Below are positions 2,003-20,455 of a stretch of 36,317 nucleotides of DNA, in pieces (position 1 is the stretch's first letter; each line of letters begins with the position of its first letter). The stretch covers positions 1-36,317 of the forward strand of contig JACDOI010000024.1 of assembly GCA_017656145.1 (NCBI GenBank). Direction: 5' to 3'. The translations under genes and the position numbers were made by a program. Below the pieces are notes generated by a model. It was not told where the DNA came from. It made no database searches and was given only the letters and a program-made list of their open reading frames with translations. Source of the DNA: Bacillota bacterium (GTDB lineage Bacteria; Bacillota; Limnochordia; Limnochordales; ZCTH02-B6).

Positions 2003-3225
2003 CTATGCCCGCGCGAGGGACCCGGGCGCCAGGCGCAACAGAAGTTTCATAAACAGCCGCATTCCGCCCAAGGAGTACACATACCGCCACGAGTTGACAT
2101 CCTTCAGCACCGCGGGCAGGCGCCCGGCAAGCTTGAGATCGCCGATCCGGGCGATTCCCATGTCCCGCCCTACGGTGGCCACGACACCGAGACTTGCTCC
2201 CGAGTAGGACCGCAGCGGCCGTCCGGACGCGGAGGCCCAGATGTTATATGCCGCAAGCCGGCCCTGGCCGACCGCATGCTGCGCGGTGGGAGCCACCGGC
2301 TGTCCTGTCCTGGGATTGATCGCCAGCGCCGCGTCGCCGACAATGTATACATCCGGGCTGTCCACGGACTGCAAATACTCGTTGACCACCGCCCGCCCCC
2401 GGGCCCGCGCGGTGAAGCACCGTTCCACCAGCCGGTTTGCCCGCACTCCCCCCGTCCAGATGACGGTCCGGGCCTCGATCCTCTGCCGTCCTGCAACACC
2501 ACGGCCCCCCGTTCCACCGCGGCGATGGGAACGCCCATCATGAGGCTGACACCTTTGCGCACCAATGTGTCCACAGCCGCCTCAACCAGCGGATCGTCAA
2601 ATCCCGGCAAAATGTCGGGCGCGGCCTCCACGGTGATGATGCGAACCTCCCGGGCCGGTGCGCCGGTCCGGCGGGCCAGCCCCCGCACCCGGTCCGCGAG
2701 CTCGCCTGCGAACTCGACGCCGGTGAAACCGCCGCCGGCTACGACGACGGTCAAGTACGGGCGGCGATCCCGGACCGACGGTAGCCCGGCGGCCTCCCGA
2801 AACATGGATGCGATGTGGCGGCGGATGACCCCGGCGCTGTTGAGGCTCCGGATGGTCAGACTGTGCTCGGCCATTCCCGGGATGGAAAAATACTCGGGCT
2901 CGCTTCCCAAGGCCACCACCAATCGGTCATACCGGAAGACCCGCTCGCGGTCCAAGACGAACTGGTGGGCGGTCCAGCGGATGTCGGTGACCGTACCGCG
3001 GATCAGCTCAACGCCGGTGCCGGCGAAGATGTCCCGCAACGGGATGGCGAGCGCCCGGCCGGTGACCGAGCCGGCGGCCGGCCGGTGGAGCTCGGTGACC
3101 AGTTGGTGGTACCCATCCTGGTTGATGAGGCTGATACGGACATCCCTGCGCCCGCGAAACCGCCGAGCGAGGTCGAGAGCGGCCCGCACGCCCGCGTACC
3201 CGGCACCGAGAACCCGGATCTTCAC
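2003..3225 (-). pseudogene. ndh: type II NADH dehydrogenase (NDH-2), frameshifted
   Basis: NDH-2 enzymes oxidise NADH and reduce membrane quinone without pumping protons. The N-terminal part has the FAD-binding GAGYAG (residues 7-12) and a second nucleotide fold with VVVAGGGFTGVEFAGEL (161-177). After residue 247 (VVLQDG, base 2485) homology moves to another frame, where RIEARTVIWTGGVRANRL continues the protein through DVYIVGDAA and the quinone-site-like TAQHAVGQG to a hydrophobic basic tail. Adding one base near 2482-2488 (GGCAG to GGCCAG) restores about 407 residues, the usual length. It is either a recent mutation or a sequencing error, since the downstream part is not decayed. The GTG start at 3225 is 43 bases after the TPR/HD-GYP gene. 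Confidence 0.85.
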
Positions 3226-3268
3226 GCCAACACCCCCGCACGGGTATTGTGGCCTGCCGGGCTTGCGG

Positions 3269-4867
3269 TTAGGCGCGCCCGAACGTTCTCACGCCCTGCG
3301 CCCCCAATCCGCCTGCGCCGGGCAACGGAGAAGGGCCGCTTGCTCCCGTTGCCCGGGGATTGCAGGCACCCTCATGCAGAGCGATGAAGTGGTCCACCAG
3401 CACCGGGTCCAGAGCTCTCCCTCGCTGCCGGACGAGATTCTCCATCGCGTGCCGGTGGCCCCATTCGACGGCATCGTGCACGTACGTGCTGGCGACGGCG
3501 ATGATCCGGGCCAAATGCGGGATATCCTCGCCCGCCAGCCCGTCCGGATAACCCCGGCCGTCGTATCGCTCGTGATGATGTCTGATCGCGTCCCGGCACG
3601 CGGCAGGCACCGGGAACAGGCTGACGATCTGCTCCCCGAATGTCGGATGGGCTCGCACCCGATCCTGGGCGGCCCGGCTCAACGGCCGGCTCCCATCCAT
3701 GATCTCGGGTTCTAGGGAAGCGAGTCCGACGTCTTGAAGTTTGGCCGCGTGGGCCAGCGCTTCCCGTTCCTCCTGGTCCAACCCGTAGGCCTCACCCAAC
3801 AGCAGCGCGTACCAAGCGGCAAGCTCCGCCCGAAAACGCAGCTCAGGATAGAGGCTTTCGATGGAGTCCAACAGGTCGAGCAAGGTCGCCAAATAGCGCA
3901 ATCGCTCGTTGCACTCGGGATGAATCCCAGCCCCAGAGACGAACACCTCCTGTGGCCCGGACCGCTGCTCCAGTAGAGCGTCGAGCTGCCGGTTCACCCG
4001 CGACCACTCCCGCCACATGGACGCCTGGGCAAAATAGGCGCTGGCCCTCTGAAGATCGATCAGCGCCGAGTGCCGGTCGCCGACCGCGAGCGCAATGGCC
4101 CCGAAAAGCTCGCTGAGCCTGGCCGCCTCCATCTTGTGAACAGACAAGACGTTGGACCAAAGCAGCCGCAACGCTTCGCTGCCGCAGGCCGCCGCTTTGT
4201 TCACATCGCCGGCAACAAACCACAACCGACCCAATTCTGTATATGTGCACCCCAGGTCCGTTTCTCTCCCTGCGCTTTGCAGGACGTCCCGAGCGTTTTC
4301 CAGATACTGCCGGGCAGTTTCGAAGTTTCCGCGCTCAATCTCGACCGATCCGAGATTGGACAGGAGATGCGCCGCTCGAACCCGGTCGCCGGTTTCCTCG
4401 AACAGCCGCAGCGCCTGGCGGGCCGTGGCCTCGGCCTCTTCCCAACTTCCAAGGGCTACGAGAATAGAGGAGGCAGACTGCTGAACGCGGGCGACCAATT
4501 CCGGATGTACTTGGTCGCAACATCGCTGAGCGGCGAACACATATTGCTTCGCATCCGCCAACCGCCCGCGCCGGAATGCGACGAGGGCCCGGTTCGTCAT
4601 CACCTGGACCCAGTCGACCGGTGTTGCCCCGGGGTCGGATTCGATGAGCCGGGACGCGCTCAGCCACATGGCCTCGGCCTGTTCGAGGCGGCCCAGCGCA
4701 AACTCAACGCACCCCAGCGCATTCAGGCTCCGGGCCTCCTGGAGCCGGCTCCCGGTGCGCCGGGCTTCTGCTCGCCATTGCGACCAGGACTCTTCCGCCA
4801 TGAACAAGAGGCCCCGTTGCCACGCCCACATTCCCCGCTGTTGCAGCAGCTCCCATCCGGCGTCCAT
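3269..4867 (-). CDS. TPR-repeat protein with degenerate HD-GYP domain
   Basis: The 532-residue cytoplasmic protein has TPR-like helical repeats over about residues 35-300 (for example SLNALGCVEFALGRLEQAEA and LSNLGSVEIERGNFETARQY). A C-terminal HD-GYP domain (about 325-470) follows. HD-GYP proteins normally hydrolyse cyclic di-GMP. Here RHHHERYDGRGYPDG (429-443) and His407 (AHP) are intact, but the canonical LHDIGK motif reads LQDVGL (Gln378-Asp379) and the aspartate of VADAF is Ser460. Two metal ligands and the conserved lysine are therefore lost, suggesting a binding or adaptor role. It sits 83 bases downstream of the histidine kinase gene and may share its transcript. Confidence 0.8.
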   Translation of the reverse strand: MDAGWELLQQRGMWAWQRGLLFMAEESWSQWRAEARRTGSRLQEARSLNALGCVEFALGRLEQAEAMWLSASRLIESDPGATPVDWVQVMTNRALVAFRRGRLADAKQYVFAAQRCCDQVHPELVARVQQSASSILVALGSWEEAEATARQALRLFEETGDRVRAAHLLSNLGSVEIERGNFETARQYLENARDVLQSAGRETDLGCTYTELGRLWFVAGDVNKAAACGSEALRLLWSNVLSVHKMEAARLSELFGAIALAVGDRHSALIDLQRASAYFAQASMWREWSRVNRQLDALLEQRSGPQEVFVSGAGIHPECNERLRYLATLLDLLDSIESLYPELRFRAELAAWYALLLGEAYGLDQEEREALAHAAKLQDVGLASLEPEIMDGSRPLSRAAQDRVRAHPTFGEQIVSLFPVPAACRDAIRHHHERYDGRGYPDGLAGEDIPHLARIIAVASTYVHDAVEWGHRHAMENLVRQRGRALDPVLVDHFIALHEGACNPRATGASGPSPLPGAGGLGAQGVRTFGRA

Positions 4868-9320: not shown

Positions 9321-12300
9321 GTGAGGTTGTCTGAATGGGCCGTCCGGCATCCGGTCACGGTCAGCATGTTTGCCATCGGCGCCGTTTTGCTCGGCGTCGC
9401 GGCCTGGCAAAACCTAAATCTGGAACTGTACCCCGACCTGCAACTTCCTTATGTCACCGTGGCCACCGTTTATCCGGGCGCCGATCCGGCGACCGTTGAG
9501 GAAGAAATCACCGGTCCCATCGAAGGCCTCCTGACGACGACCCCGGGCCTGCGGCGCATCGAGTCGCTCAGCATGGAGAACTTGTCGCTGGTGTTTGGCG
9601 AGTTCCGGTGGGGTACCCCGCTTGGCGACACCATCGAGGAAATCCGGACCAAACTGGCGGCCCTGGCCCTCACGCTTCCTGCGGAGGCGCAGGCGCCGGT
9701 GGTGATGCGGCTTGATCCGAACCACTTTCCTTCCCTCCTCATAGGCGTCGCAAGTCCCCAGGGACCGGAGGCGGCCACCGAGGCGGCTTTGCAGATCATA
9801 CGGCCGCGCCTGGCCCGGATCACCGGCGTGGCCCAGGTAACCGTTCTCGGCGGCGTCGAGCGGGAGATCCAGGTTCGGTATGACAGCGAAAAGCTCCAGC
9901 AGCACGGGTTGACCCCGGCCCGGCTCGAGCAGCTTTTGGCCTTGCAAAACGCCACGATCCCAGCAGGGACCCTCGAAGACGGGGGCACCCGCTATCAGCT
10001 GCGGGTGGGCAACCACTTCTCCGGAGCGCAGCAAATCCGGGATCTGGTCATCGGCGAAAACCGGTTGCCGGTTCAGGGCCTGGCGGCCCTTTGGCCCCCG
10101 TTGCTTCACGTCAAAGATGTGGCCGAGGTGGTGGACACCCTCCGGCCTCCGACCGGGTACGCCCGCATTGACGGCCAGCCCGCGGTGTTGTTGCAGGTTC
10201 TAAAGCAATCGGACGCGAACACCGTGGCGGTGGCCGACGCGGTGCGCCAGGCGCTCGGCGAACTGGAAGCGGAACTTGCAGACGTGAGCCTCACGGTCAT
10301 CATGGATCAATCGAAAACCGTCCGCCTTCACCTCTCCAACCTGGCGACCACGGGCCTTTACGGGTGCCTGGTGGCGGTATTCGTGCTCTTGGCGTTTCTC
10401 CGCCACTGGAAAAGCAGCTTCGTCGTAGCCCTTTCCCTACCCTTGTCGGTTTTGGCGGCGGTCATCGTCCTCTACCTCCTCGGACTCGATCTGAACCTCA
10501 TGACCATCGGCGGTCTTGCCATGGGAATCGGAATGGTCGTCGACAACGCGATCATCGTCCTCGAAAGCATCGCCCGGCACCGGAGCCTGGGCAAATCTTC
10601 GGTCGACGCGGCCATTGACGGCAGCCAGGAAGTGATCGGTGCGGCCGCGGGCGCCACCTTGACCACTGTAGCGGTCTTTTTGCCCCTCTTGTTTCTCGAT
10701 GGATTCGCGGGGCGACTGCTCAAGGACTTGGGCTTGACGGTGTCGCTCTCTTTGGTCGCGTCGCTGGCCGTCGCGGCGACCGTCATTCCGGCCGCGGCAG
10801 CTCGGCTGGTCGGCGCCGGGAACGTTGCGGCAGGGGATTCTTGGGACCGGGGAGTGCTTGCCCGCTCCTACGTCCGGTTTCTTGAGAAGGCGGTTTCTCG
10901 ACCCGGAACCGTGCTGGTTGTTGCCGCACTCGCGGTGATCGCCACCGCGTCCCTGGTGCCCGGTCTTGGCATCGAGTTCCTGCCCCGGATGCACACGCGA
11001 ACGCTGCATGTGACGCTGGAGATGCCTTCGGGCACGCCGTTGTCCGAAACCGACGCGGCGGCCCGGGAGGCGGAACGCCGTCTGTTGCTTGTGCCCGAAG
11101 TTCGCTCGGTAGCCGCGCAAGTGGGCGAGCAGCGCCAGGAAGATCTCATCTCGCTTTTGGGCGAGTATCGGCCCAACACCGCGCAGTTGACGCTGTTCCT
11201 CGCGCCGCCGTCTGAGCAGCGGGATATGGCGGCCATCGTCGCTGACATCCGCAATGCCCTCGCGGATTTGCCCGCAGCCCGCATCTCGGTCCGGGAGGAA
11301 TGGAGTTCCACCAGCAGTGTCCTCTCCAACGAGATCGTGCTCCAGGTTCAGGGGCCCGACCTCGAAACCTTGCACCGGCTGGCCGAGGAGCTGGCCCGCC
11401 GCCTGCGGCAAAGCGACGCGGTGGCCGATGCCTACGTCCCCTTAGGCCAGCCCGAGCCCGAGCTGTACCTGGCGGTCAACCAGTCCCGGGCTCTGATCGG
11501 GGGGATGACGACGGCCCAGGTGAGCCTGGCCGTCCGCAACGTCCTGTCAGGCGTCGAAGTAACCCAGGTGCGGGAAAACGGGCGGGTCATCCCGGTCGTT
11601 TTGCGTCCCAAACCCGAGGAGATCACAGACCTGGACGGACTGCTCAACCACCGGATCTCTTCGCCTGTGGTCGTAGACGCAAGCGATGCCACCGCGATCC
11701 GGCTGGCCAATGTGGTGGAGGTGGTGGAAACCACCGGCCAGCAGGCCATTCGCCGCATCGACGGCGTCCGGGCGGTGGAAGTGCGCGTCCAGCCGGCCGG
11801 GTCCGACATGCGCCGGGTCAATCAGGCGGTGGACGCGGCCGTGTCGAGCCTTGAGGTGCCGCCGGGCTTTGAGATACGCACCGCAGGCATGCGCCAGCTC
11901 ATCGCTGAGTCGACCAGCGACTTGTTGAGGGCCTTGGCGTGGGCCTTGACGCTGGTGTTCATGGTGATGGCGGCCAAGTTCGAATCGTGGCGTCATCCCT
12001 TGATCATCATTGTCACCGTCCCCCTCGCGGGCATGGGCGCGGTCTGGGCCCTTCGCCTCACCGGCCAAAACCTAGGCGTCGCGTCGCTCTTGGGCCTCAT
12101 GGTGCTGGGCGGTATTGCGGTCAACAACGGCATCGTTCTGGTGGACCGGATCAACCAGCTCCGCCGGGACGGCGTCCCCCTCCTAGCCGCGGCCGTGGAT
12201 GCCTCCGTAACCCGCTTGCGGCCGGTGCTCATGACCGCGGGCACCACGGTGGCAGGCTTGCTGCCGCTCGCGCTGAGGCGGGGCGAAGGCACCGAGTTCC

Positions 12301-13403
12301 AGGTTCCCGTCGCCATCACGGCCATCGGGGGTCTCATCGCTTCGACGCTGCTCACCCTCTTGGTGGTGCCGGCCATGTACGTGCTGATGGAGGGACGCCG
12401 GCCCCATCGCCCGGACCTCCGGGGACAGCTCGGCGCGCGGGTCGGGGCAGCCCTCGTGGCGCTGGGTGTGAGCTGGCTTTTCCCTGCCGGGACCGCGGCC
12501 CAATCCGGCGGGGAGGGAATCCAATTGCTGGCCGGCGTAGGCTACGCCGGCGGCATCCCTCAGCCGGTGTACGTCATCGGCGCCGGGTGGGACGGCCGGA
12601 TCAAAGATGTGGAGTGGAAACTGGCCGCCGCGGTCGGCATCGGGCCGGACGGCCGGGCGCCCTTGCTCGCGGCCGGCGCCTCCGCCCGATGGTTTCAACC
12701 GGTGTCCTTCTTCGGCTATTATGAGCTGGCCGGCAAACTGGACTGGCGCCAGACGGGCAGCGGGCCCATGGTGCCGGCGATCTCGGTGACGGGGCGCGGG
12801 GTGCTCGGCAACGTCACCGGGGCGGTCGAATTCGACACGCTCGCGCCGGGTTTTCCGTCCGTCCCCTGGGACGATCCGCTACGCGCGGAACTGTCCCGTG
12901 GGGGAACGGGCGGCTCCCGGTTTTGGGCCGAAATCCGGGAACAACCCAACCGGGAACTCATCCTCATCCGGGAATTCGAATGGTCTGACCGGCCCGGGCC
13001 GGCTGGCGCCACCGGCGTCCTGTTTGCGGGCGGCGCCGAAGTGCGGGCGGGAGACGGATGGCTGCTCAGCAAGGCCGGGGCCGCGGTGATGCGGGGCGAA
13101 GTGCGGGCCGTGTTCGGCACTGCGTACCGCTTCCGGCCAGGGCCGTACTCCCAATTGTCGATGACCGTTGCGTCGGTCGCGGGCCCGGGATTTGAGCCCC
13201 GCATGGCGCTCGACTATGAGCTGCTCAATGATGACCTGTCCCTTACGGTGAGCGTGAGCCTCCGCCAGCCGGATCCCGGCAGATGGCTTCCCGGCCTGTT
13301 TGTGCGGGCCGAACCTCACGCCGGCGGGCCCAGCTGGCAAATCGTCTGGGGCAGCCCGGGGTCGGACGTCACGCCGTCGGTAGGCGTGTTCACCGAGTTT
13401 TGA
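9321..13403 (+). CDS. RND transporter (HAE family) with beta-rich C-terminal extension
   Basis: Residues 1-1024 form a complete RND permease. They include TM1 near 12-30 with LNLELYPDLQLPYVTV, the porter loops, the TM4 segment GMVVDNAIIVLE with Asp408 and Asn409 in place of the Asp-Asp pair of AcrB, and the second half with its own loop and TM set ending LVVPAMYVLMEG. An extra 336 residues follow. A signal-peptide-like helix with an Ala-rich end lies at about 1036-1062. The rest is a Gly- and aromatic-rich region with many alternating strands, ending in Phe (SVGVFTEF). The GTG at 9321 follows AAGGAG (9307-9312). No membrane fusion protein or TolC gene accompanies it; the substrate is unknown. 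Confidence 0.88.
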   Translation: MRLSEWAVRHPVTVSMFAIGAVLLGVAAWQNLNLELYPDLQLPYVTVATVYPGADPATVEEEITGPIEGLLTTTPGLRRIESLSMENLSLVFGEFRWGTPLGDTIEEIRTKLAALALTLPAEAQAPVVMRLDPNHFPSLLIGVASPQGPEAATEAALQIIRPRLARITGVAQVTVLGGVEREIQVRYDSEKLQQHGLTPARLEQLLALQNATIPAGTLEDGGTRYQLRVGNHFSGAQQIRDLVIGENRLPVQGLAALWPPLLHVKDVAEVVDTLRPPTGYARIDGQPAVLLQVLKQSDANTVAVADAVRQALGELEAELADVSLTVIMDQSKTVRLHLSNLATTGLYGCLVAVFVLLAFLRHWKSSFVVALSLPLSVLAAVIVLYLLGLDLNLMTIGGLAMGIGMVVDNAIIVLESIARHRSLGKSSVDAAIDGSQEVIGAAAGATLTTVAVFLPLLFLDGFAGRLLKDLGLTVSLSLVASLAVAATVIPAAAARLVGAGNVAAGDSWDRGVLARSYVRFLEKAVSRPGTVLVVAALAVIATASLVPGLGIEFLPRMHTRTLHVTLEMPSGTPLSETDAAAREAERRLLLVPEVRSVAAQVGEQRQEDLISLLGEYRPNTAQLTLFLAPPSEQRDMAAIVADIRNALADLPAARISVREEWSSTSSVLSNEIVLQVQGPDLETLHRLAEELARRLRQSDAVADAYVPLGQPEPELYLAVNQSRALIGGMTTAQVSLAVRNVLSGVEVTQVRENGRVIPVVLRPKPEEITDLDGLLNHRISSPVVVDASDATAIRLANVVEVVETTGQQAIRRIDGVRAVEVRVQPAGSDMRRVNQAVDAAVSSLEVPPGFEIRTAGMRQLIAESTSDLLRALAWALTLVFMVMAAKFESWRHPLIIIVTVPLAGMGAVWALRLTGQNLGVASLLGLMVLGGIAVNNGIVLVDRINQLRRDGVPLLAAAVDASVTRLRPVLMTAGTTVAGLLPLALRRGEGTEFQVPVAITAIGGLIASTLLTLLVVPAMYVLMEGRRPHRPDLRGQLGARVGAALVALGVSWLFPAGTAAQSGGEGIQLLAGVGYAGGIPQPVYVIGAGWDGRIKDVEWKLAAAVGIGPDGRAPLLAAGASARWFQPVSFFGYYELAGKLDWRQTGSGPMVPAISVTGRGVLGNVTGAVEFDTLAPGFPSVPWDDPLRAELSRGGTGGSRFWAEIREQPNRELILIREFEWSDRPGPAGATGVLFAGGAEVRAGDGWLLSKAGAAVMRGEVRAVFGTAYRFRPGPYSQLSMTVASVAGPGFEPRMALDYELLNDDLSLTVSVSLRQPDPGRWLPGLFVRAEPHAGGPSWQIVWGSPGSDVTPSVGVFTEF

Positions 13404-18218: not shown

Positions 18219-18599
18219 ATGGACATTCTCGGCCGCAGCATTTTAGCGTCGTTTCACCGCCGGGAAGACGCGCAGCAGGCGATGCGGGCGCTCCGCCGGG
18301 AGGGATTCACGGTCCAGTTGGATCGGGCAAGCCCTTATCCCGGCGCTGAAACCGGGCAACGGGAACACGCCTTAGCCGGCCAAGTCGGCACCCTGTCGGA
18401 CCCCGCGGCGGTGGGAGACGCCACGGGCGAAGACCCTCGGGCCTTCCTGGATGCTTCGGGTGTCGTTGCGCCGGGACTCGACCGCGGGCTGAATGAGCCG
18501 AGTGCCGGCCAAAACACTTGGCTTGTGACGGTAGTGACCGAGGAAGATCGCGTCAACCGCGCCGTTCAAATACTGGAAGATGCAGGGGGTACCGTCTGA
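18219..18599 (+). CDS. small protein, YflT/general-stress-17M-like
   Basis: I do not recognise this 126-residue protein for certain. Residues 7-35 (SILASFHRREDAQQAMRALR and following) have the beta-alpha pattern of the general stress protein 17M/YflT domain. The end, TWLVTVVTEEDRVNRAVQIL followed by EDAGG, repeats a strand-helix pattern as in a ferredoxin-like fold. The middle is acidic, Gly/Ala-rich and probably disordered. The ATG at 18219 follows GGAGGGAT. It is 143 bases after spoVR, so it may have its own promoter. Its last 34 bases overlap the 3' end of the convergent transporter gene. A stress role is inferred from the weak domain match and from its neighbours. Confidence 0.55.
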   Translation: MDILGRSILASFHRREDAQQAMRALRREGFTVQLDRASPYPGAETGQREHALAGQVGTLSDPAAVGDATGEDPRAFLDASGVVAPGLDRGLNEPSAGQNTWLVTVVTEEDRVNRAVQILEDAGGTV

Positions 18600-19903
18600 A
18601 CGCGTGTGCCCGACCGCACTGCCTGCTCGGGATACCGGGATAAGACCAACATGCCAACCGCCACGAACGCCGCCGCCAGCGGACCCACCGCTACCAGCCC
18701 CGCAGGCCGGTCGGCGGTGAAGCCTAGCGTTTCCATGAGCCATCCGACCAGGAACGAGGACAGACCCATGGCCGCCTTGACCAAAAGGCCCTGGACTCCA
18801 AAGAACATCGCCTCCCGGCGCAACCCATTCAGCCGGTAGTCGTAGTCCGCGATCTCGGCCATCATCGCATTGGGCAGCACAAACAACCCCGCGACGCTCA
18901 AGCCCGCGACAGCGAACACCGCAAGCCCTTGCCCAAACGGCGGCACCGGCAAAGGCAAACGCCCCACCAGGCCCCATCCCAACAAGGCAGCGACCAAAGC
19001 CGCCATGGACCGCTGCAACGCCCCCTTCAGCCCCCGGGCAGCGGACAGTTTGCCGAGAAGCGGAAACGAAGCGACCGCCACCGCGAAGGAAAGCCCAAGC
19101 GCCACCGACGCGTCGGCCTCGGTCCCGCCCATGAGAACGGTCACGAAGTACGGGGCCGCGACGACGACGGCGTTTAACCCGATCCAAAACAGCATCTGGC
19201 TGGCCGCGTAGTACAAAAACGGGCGGTTGCGCAAGCACAGCACCAACGACGGGATAAGCCCCGGCGACCGCGGGCCTGCGGCCGGTTCCTCCCGTACCGA
19301 CGCTGCCGGCACAAGAAACGCAACCAGCGCCAGCGCGGCCAGAACAAGCCCCATGCCACCGAAGCCGAACCGGTCAATGAGCAAGCCCGACCCGATCATG
19401 GCCACGGCCAGGCCGGCGATCTGAAAGACCGCCTGCCATGTGGCCAGCCGCACCCGATCAGCTTGCGTGCGAGCCAGCTCGGGCAAGAGGGCGAGGTACG
19501 GGGCAGTGTAGACAGTAAAGCAGAACAGGAAGAGGGAGACCATGATCCCCAGGTACACGGCCAGTCCAAGCGTCGTCAAAAACGCGGGCGGCCACCAGAG
19601 GAAGAGAAAGCTCAGCGCCAAGGGCAGCGAGCCGAATACCAGGAAGGGCCTGCGGCGGCCCCACCGGGTACGGGCGGCGTCGCTCCAGGCTCCGACCAGC
19701 GGATCTGCCGCCGCGTCGACGATTCGCCCAAGCAACATCGCGGTTCCAACCCAGCCGATGGGCACCAGCGCGGGCAGTCCGGTTTCGGATGGCGGCGCGT
19801 AAAAGTACGCGAGCCAGACCAGGACCGTTTGGGTCACGATGGCAATGCCCGCGTACCCCGCTCCGTAGCGGAGGCTCAGGCTCAGCGACACCCCGGTACC
19901 CAC
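18566..19903 (-). CDS. MFS transporter, GPH (sugar:cation symporter) family
   Basis: The protein has twelve predicted membrane helices and the glycoside-pentoside-hexuronide signature: GRIVDAAADPLVGAWSDAAR with TRWGRRRPFLVFG right after, then a central loop and MMAEIADYDYRLNGLRREA in the C-terminal half. Such carriers import sugars or glycosides with sodium or protons, but many GPH members have unknown substrates. The GTG at 19903 is 8 bases after GAAGGAG, giving 445 residues; an upstream ATG at 19972 lacks a ribosome binding site. It follows the thioredoxin-like gene by 78 bases on the same strand and may share its transcript. The 3' end overlaps the convergent small gene. Confidence 0.85.
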   Translation of the reverse strand: MGTGVSLSLSLRYGAGYAGIAIVTQTVLVWLAYFYAPPSETGLPALVPIGWVGTAMLLGRIVDAAADPLVGAWSDAARTRWGRRRPFLVFGSLPLALSFLFLWWPPAFLTTLGLAVYLGIMVSLFLFCFTVYTAPYLALLPELARTQADRVRLATWQAVFQIAGLAVAMIGSGLLIDRFGFGGMGLVLAALALVAFLVPAASVREEPAAGPRSPGLIPSLVLCLRNRPFLYYAASQMLFWIGLNAVVVAAPYFVTVLMGGTEADASVALGLSFAVAVASFPLLGKLSAARGLKGALQRSMAALVAALLGWGLVGRLPLPVPPFGQGLAVFAVAGLSVAGLFVLPNAMMAEIADYDYRLNGLRREAMFFGVQGLLVKAAMGLSSFLVGWLMETLGFTADRPAGLVAVGPLAAAFVAVGMLVLSRYPEQAVRSGTRVQTVPPASSSI

Positions 19904-19981
19904 GGCCCCCACTCCTTCGCGCAGAGGGGTCCCGCTCCCCACCGCGGCTCGGTTCGGATCGCCGGCGCGCATTGCCTGGCT

Positions 19982-20455
19982 TTACCCGGCACTCTCCACC
20001 CGGGCCCGCTGCTCCTCAAGAAGCTGCCGCCACACCGTTTCCGGCTGCGCTCCCACTATCCGGGCCGTCTCCCGGCCGCCTTCGAACCGGACTACCGTAG
20101 GCGTCGCCCGGATGTCGTACTCCCACCAGACGGACTGGTACCGGTTGACATCGACGACGTACAGGACGACTTGCAGCTCTTCTGTCAGCCTCGCCAGGAC
20201 CGGCGAGGTTCGACGGCAGTAGATTCAGGTCGGCGAATGAAAGTAGACGAGAACCGGCTCCCCAATTTGCACAAGCTCTTGGATCTCGTCTGGCGTGCTG
20301 TAGCGGTAAAACCCGTCCGACCCCGGCGGGCGGTTGGCCAAAAAGAGGAGCAATACGAGCAGGGCCGTCACGCCGATGCCCGCAACCCACGGCCATGGAA
20401 GCCGGGCTCGCCGGGTCGTTTTGGCCTGCGACCGCTTTTTCGGCTTGCCGGCCAC
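19982..20455 (-). CDS. membrane-anchored thioredoxin-like selenoprotein (UXXC), in-frame TGA
   Basis: The frame codes for a basic N-terminus, one membrane helix (PWVAGIGVTALLVLLLFLAN) and an exported thioredoxin-like domain. The fold's features are VLVYFHSPT, an active site read as T-U-I-Y-C, VVLYVVDVNRY, and the cis-Pro motif ATPTVVRF. The TGA at 20225-20227 replaces the first Cys of CXXC. The frame continues for 80 sense codons to TAA at 19982-19984, with no other stop. A SECIS-like hairpin lies 23 bases after the TGA. A product of 157 residues starts at GTG 20455 behind GGGGGTGG; a TTG at 20569 would add 38 basic, low-complexity residues. TGA is a normal stop elsewhere here, so recoding would be local. 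The alternative is a nonsense pseudogene. Confidence 0.8.
20184..20214 (-). promoter_or_regulatory. bacterial SECIS element (selenocysteine insertion signal)
   Basis: Reading the minus strand after the TGA (20225-20227), CCTCGCC (20208-20202) and GGCGAGG (20195-20189) pair perfectly over 7 bases around the loop GGTCCT (20201-20196). A further GTC/GAC pairing extends the stem after a small internal bulge. The GG of the loop lies 23 bases after the TGA. Published bacterial SECIS models ask for a hairpin with G in the first loop positions about 16-37 bases after UGA; the Escherichia coli fdhF loop AGGUCU is very close to this one. SelB would bind the loop and deliver Sec-tRNA. Confidence 0.75.

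Follow-up and report, generated by a model that had tools for sequence, protein, structure and literature searches.

A predicted membrane-anchored UxxC thioredoxin selenoprotein in a Limnochordales bacterium

An in-frame TGA codon at the active site of a membrane-anchored thioredoxin

A gene at positions 19982 to 20455 (minus strand) of the window (i.e., the whole 36,317-nucleotide stretch of DNA analyzed here) almost certainly encodes a selenoprotein. Comparative sequence evidence predicts that its UGA codon 77 is translated as selenocysteine (Sec) with the use of SelB, tRNA-Sec, and an mRNA hairpin, yielding a membrane-anchored thioredoxin of 157 residues whose active site has the form UxxC. 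The gene starts with GTG (20455 to 20453) and ends with TAA (19984 to 19982), and the TGA (20225 to 20227, minus strand) specifies the first residue of the active site. A previous sequence-only reading, which named no strand, had described a membrane-anchored thioredoxin-like frame that was intact apart from one TGA at the first active-site cysteine (FHSPT-U-IYC). Both the frame and the position of the TGA (codon 77) were borne out, and the gene was placed on the minus strand. Translation through the TGA (VYFHSPT-TGA-IYCRRTSP) also reproduced the 80 open codons reported to follow it, up to the TAA, together with the rest of the fold, including the cis-proline stretch ATPTVVRF 3' of the TGA. 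The read-through protein consists of a basic N terminus, one membrane helix, and a thioredoxin domain, in which U77 and C80 delimit the UxxC motif and P119 is the cis-proline. Standard gene callers would cut this gene in half at the TGA.

The upstream neighbor, which served as a synteny anchor, is rpsI (ribosomal protein S9, PF00380; 20597 to 21019, minus strand). Downstream, an MFS_2 gene of the sugar transporter type (18566 to 19972, minus strand) starts 9 nt past the TAA, and the two genes are probably cotranscribed. The presence of an adjoining transporter gene had been noted previously, and its match to PF13347 (199.5 bits) indicates that it is real. Elsewhere in the window, the frame of an AcrB-type RND transporter gene (9321 to 13403, plus strand) runs about 340 residues beyond the AcrB domain, and its tail has the appearance of a distinct protein, secreted or located in the outer membrane, that has been joined on in frame.

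The read-through protein matched the Pfam thioredoxin family PF00085 with 48.7 bits (cutoff, 23.5), and the match spanned both sides of the TGA. The score for PF13098 was also above the cutoff (39.9 versus 27 bits), although PF00085 fits better. Weak matches to disulfide isomerase models were detected as well, but the best family matches were to thioredoxin. An AlphaFold2 model built from a three-sequence input was of moderate confidence (mean pLDDT, 66). Its thioredoxin part (about residues 50 to 154; 19994 to 20308, minus strand) matched thioredoxins in the PDB, with target-normalized TM-scores mostly of about 0.7 to 0.8. The predicted membrane anchor after the basic N terminus corresponds to a model helix of low confidence at residues 26 to 40 (20336 to 20380, minus strand). 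The protein thus combines a domain match above the cutoff, a UxxC motif, and a cis-proline, as expected of a Sec-containing thioredoxin (PF00085, UxxC).

Conservation of the TGA codon

Among 73 genomes of the class, thioredoxin matches with an internal TGA were found only in the genome of the window and in two others (G071 and G072). A search of the contigs with the single protein gave no match, and both orthologues were recovered with a profile of the three-sequence alignment. They come from two compost genomes, ZCTH02-B6 and ZC4RG06, which represent a different genus in the family of the window's organism. ZC4RG06 is assigned to GTDB family ZCTH02-B6 in the order Limnochordales (PMC8434746), and the window's organism belongs there too because it shares this family, which occurs in thermophilic compost. 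The orthologous proteins are 64% and 61% identical to the window protein, and both genes have a TGA at the homologous codon and the same layout, with rpsI upstream and an MFS_2 gene downstream. The sequence after the TGA is under purifying selection in the three pairs, with dN/dS values of about 0.16 (0.175/1.07), 0.29 (0.225/0.78), and 0.13 (0.067/0.51). In an alignment of homologues through this position, a check proposed in the sequence-only reading, TGA occupied the codon in the three orthologues, and Cys was found in all 27 aligned thioredoxins of the class and in membrane-anchored forms, with no decay downstream. The pattern expected of a bacterial selenoprotein gene was therefore found, i.e., Sec genes in the genome and a TGA that aligns with Cys and is kept as TGA in orthologues.

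Neither tRNA-Sec, SelB above the cutoff, nor the TGA gene was detected in two further genomes of the family (G069 and G070). In G070, an unrelated dehydrogenase gene lies between rpsI and the transporter gene in place of the selenoprotein gene. The absence of the gene from G069 weighs less because that assembly is fragmented and rpsI was not found in it either. tRNA-Sec was not found in G072, though this genome has the TGA gene and SelB; its assembly is only about 89% complete.

A predicted SECIS hairpin downstream of the TGA

A predicted bacterial SECIS hairpin (20189 to 20208, minus strand) has a 7-bp stem (CCUCGCC/GGCGAGG) and the loop GGUCCU. A hairpin with this loop and stem length occurs in all three genes; its stem starts 16 nt and its loop 23 nt past the TGA. 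The constraints on bacterial SECIS elements given in PMC13188914 are a loop of 3 to 9 nt, a stem of 4 to 16 bp, a G in the first two loop positions, a loop placed 16 to 37 nt after the UGA, and a minimum free energy (MFE) of at most -7.5 kcal/mol. The hairpin falls within them, with its loop of 6 nt, stem of 7 bp, initial GG, and distance of 23 nt, and the MFEs of 35-nt segments from the three genes were -17.7, -10.3, and -13.5 kcal/mol. One stem pair changed in a compensatory manner between the window (G-C) and the orthologues (U-A); one of the two changes also replaces Ala with Glu. Where residues are identical, the same codon was kept at 5 of 7 positions inside the hairpin; the corresponding figures were 1 of 14 upstream of the TGA and 6 of 27 downstream of the hairpin.

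Relative to shuffled sequences, the folding energy was only modestly better in the window, with a z of about -1.9 to -2.7, and showed no clear advantage in the orthologues; the case for a SECIS element therefore rests on its conservation, spacing, and loop. An Rfam search of the region returned no match. Of the 863 TGA trinucleotides in the window, 5 have a GGTC hairpin of 7 bp or more located 13 to 30 nt downstream, corresponding to a chance of about 0.6% for a single TGA, a figure that serves only as a guide because the motif was chosen after being seen. The hairpin of the formate dehydrogenase alpha gene (fdhA) in the same genome has a loop with the same GGUC start.

Selenocysteine machinery and the decoding of UGA

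The sequence-only reading had pointed to selA, selB, selD, and tRNA-Sec as the genes to be sought, and all four are present in the genome of the window (2.57 Mb; about 99% complete). The tRNA-Sec scored 75.7 bits (cutoff, 47), and ARAGORN agreed on this assignment, with a tca (UCA) anticodon. The same contig carries selA (TIGR00474, 581 bits) and selB (TIGR00475, 345 bits), both above their cutoffs. The selB product has the C-terminal winged-helix domains through which known SelB proteins bind their SECIS hairpins. The selD gene (395 bits; contig C17, match at 3017 to 3940, minus strand) has its own in-frame TGA at the usual Sec position (AG-U-GCKIGPEDL); downstream of this UGA, the structure is not the simple hairpin with GGUC found in the other genes. 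The fdhA gene (contig C8, match at 10280 to 10441, minus strand) likewise has an in-frame TGA at the usual Sec site (HHARI-U-HSSTVPGLG), followed by a hairpin with the loop GGUCU at 18 nt. An fdhD-like gene lies just upstream of fdhA on the same strand. The search for other selenoproteins of the genome proceeded family by family only; the TGA codons at the Sec sites of selD and fdhA indicate that at least two classic families in this organism use TGA for Sec.

These data bear on two other explanations of the TGA. A lone stop in an otherwise intact frame is the usual appearance of a recent mutation or a one-base error, and the TGA could accordingly be a nonsense mutation or a miscalled Cys codon in a decaying thioredoxin gene. 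However, the same TGA recurs in two more independently assembled genomes at 61 to 64% protein identity, the downstream half of the gene is under purifying selection, and the Sec machinery is present, so that a pseudogene or a sequencing or assembly error is extremely improbable. The earlier argument that chance nonsense mutation at this codon is unlikely is upheld by the same conservation and selection. We also judge it very unlikely, if marginally less so, that a different form of recoding or a changed code inserts another residue such as Cys or Trp. The conserved TGA and a position that calls for a thiol-like residue would suit such a reading, but TGA is the commonest stop in the window, where it ends 23 of the 39 listed genes, and is thus not generally reassigned. 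Moreover, the genome has SelA, SelB, SelD, and a tRNA-Sec with a UCA anticodon, and the codon is followed by a hairpin of the bacterial SECIS type. Under the selenoprotein interpretation, SelB and tRNA-Sec would decode UGA codon 77 as Sec under the direction of the hairpin starting 16 nt beyond it.

Relation to known thioredoxins and selenoproteins

Sec thioredoxin (PF00085, UxxC) is an experimentally verified prokaryotic selenoprotein family according to PMC9312934 and PMC13188914, which agrees with the earlier statement that UXXC thioredoxin-like selenoproteins are an established class. The window protein resembles this family in its fold, its Pfam match above the cutoff, and the use of Sec for the first active-site Cys. 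It differs in having an N-terminal membrane anchor and an active site of the type TUIYC/TUPFC rather than WCGPC. All NCBIfam models matching the protein scored below their cutoffs. Because of the anchor and the score of 55 bits against the thioredoxin equivalog model TIGR01068 (cutoff, 96.8), the protein is not a plain cytosolic TrxA. It shares a T-U-x-Y-C-R-like motif and the thioredoxin fold with the TUGYCR (seleno)protein family NF053656, of which it is not a member (15.4 bits; cutoff, 100). The thiol:disulfide interchange protein PF13098 is another UxxC selenoprotein family in PMC9312934. The window protein, compared with it by profile rather than with a representative sequence, has the UxxC motif, the predicted disulfide exchange role, and a score above the cutoff in common with it, but PF00085 fits better.

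The closest profile matches were membrane-anchored Cys-type proteins of the thioredoxin family from other Bacillota (L100 to L104), with 64 to 82 bits, versus 50 bits for the genome's own TrxA. Like the window protein, these proteins have a short N-terminal hydrophobic anchor and a GW..Y/VWW.Y stretch before ATPT. In most of them, the active site reads YF[HF]SPTCxxC (YFHSPTC or YFFSPTC), which resembles FHSPT-U-IYC of the window protein. They differ from the window protein in having Cys in place of Sec and a linker that is longer by about 20 residues. For the one of these proteins that was tested, no NCBIfam model scored above the cutoff. In a phylogenetic tree, the Sec group was separate from cytosolic TrxA; the tree contains three groups only, and the nearest kinship of the membrane Cys forms is therefore not shown by the tree alone. 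Cys thioredoxins encoded a few kilobases downstream of rpsI in related families were considered as orthologues and rejected because they are anchor-less, have WCGPC, and are closer to the genome's separate TrxA.

The consulted passages of the selenoprotein inventories contain no similar membrane-anchored entry of the thioredoxin type, and no selenoprotein paper on this lineage was found in the literature searched; a prior description in the Haft papers cited by PMC13188914 is possible. The window protein is a UxxC thioredoxin selenoprotein of a known kind, previously unlisted within these bounds and distinguished by its membrane anchor.

Predicted redox role and cellular location

The hydrophobic helix follows a strongly basic N terminus, and the thioredoxin domain is therefore predicted, by the positive-inside rule, to lie outside the inner membrane. 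Two-partner secretion genes (TPS secretion domain; ShlB/FhaC with POTRA) are located near the tRNA-Sec gene (L009:789-4993, minus strand). The presence of such ShlB/FhaC-type genes on this contig suggests an outer membrane, and hence that the space occupied by the Sec thioredoxin may be periplasmic. By analogy with the first Cys of thioredoxins, Sec77 would be the attacking nucleophile, and Cys80 would be the resolving residue. To judge from the sequence, the protein most likely functions as a disulfide reductase that would act on protein disulfides or other oxidized thiols outside the inner membrane. Electrons would be handed across the membrane by a CcdA/DsbD-type protein, which perhaps feeds the reductase. 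A CcdA/DsbD_TM protein is encoded in all five genomes of the family, including that of the window; no candidate redox partner was found in the operon.

An oxidase, an isomerase, or a peroxide-reducing protein would be a different kind of selenoprotein from a thioredoxin-like reductase. Each of the four other family genomes carries a VKOR-type oxidase gene, implying an oxidizing route in these relatives. The window protein also has the weak matches to disulfide isomerase models, and selenium is often used in peroxide chemistry. However, VKOR had no match in the nearly complete genome of the window, in which CcdA/DsbD is present, and thioredoxin gave the best family matches. We regard these other activities as unlikely, while giving them real weight. 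The absence of VKOR and the presence of a CcdA/DsbD-type protein favor the reducing direction without proving it.

Implications

The gene represents an additional, well-supported selenoprotein that would be truncated by standard gene calling. No new class of biology is opened by it. A broader proposal, which we think somewhat less likely than not, is that membrane-tethered Sec thioredoxins form a distinct subfamily specific to one Limnochordales family. In a Bacillota cell with two membranes, these proteins would work beyond the inner one as part of a dedicated reducing pathway fed by CcdA, and they might serve envelope proteins or the transporter encoded next to them. Together, the Sec form and the membrane-anchored Cys forms of other Bacillota offer a natural setting in which selenium can be compared with sulfur in extracytoplasmic redox proteins of one kind.
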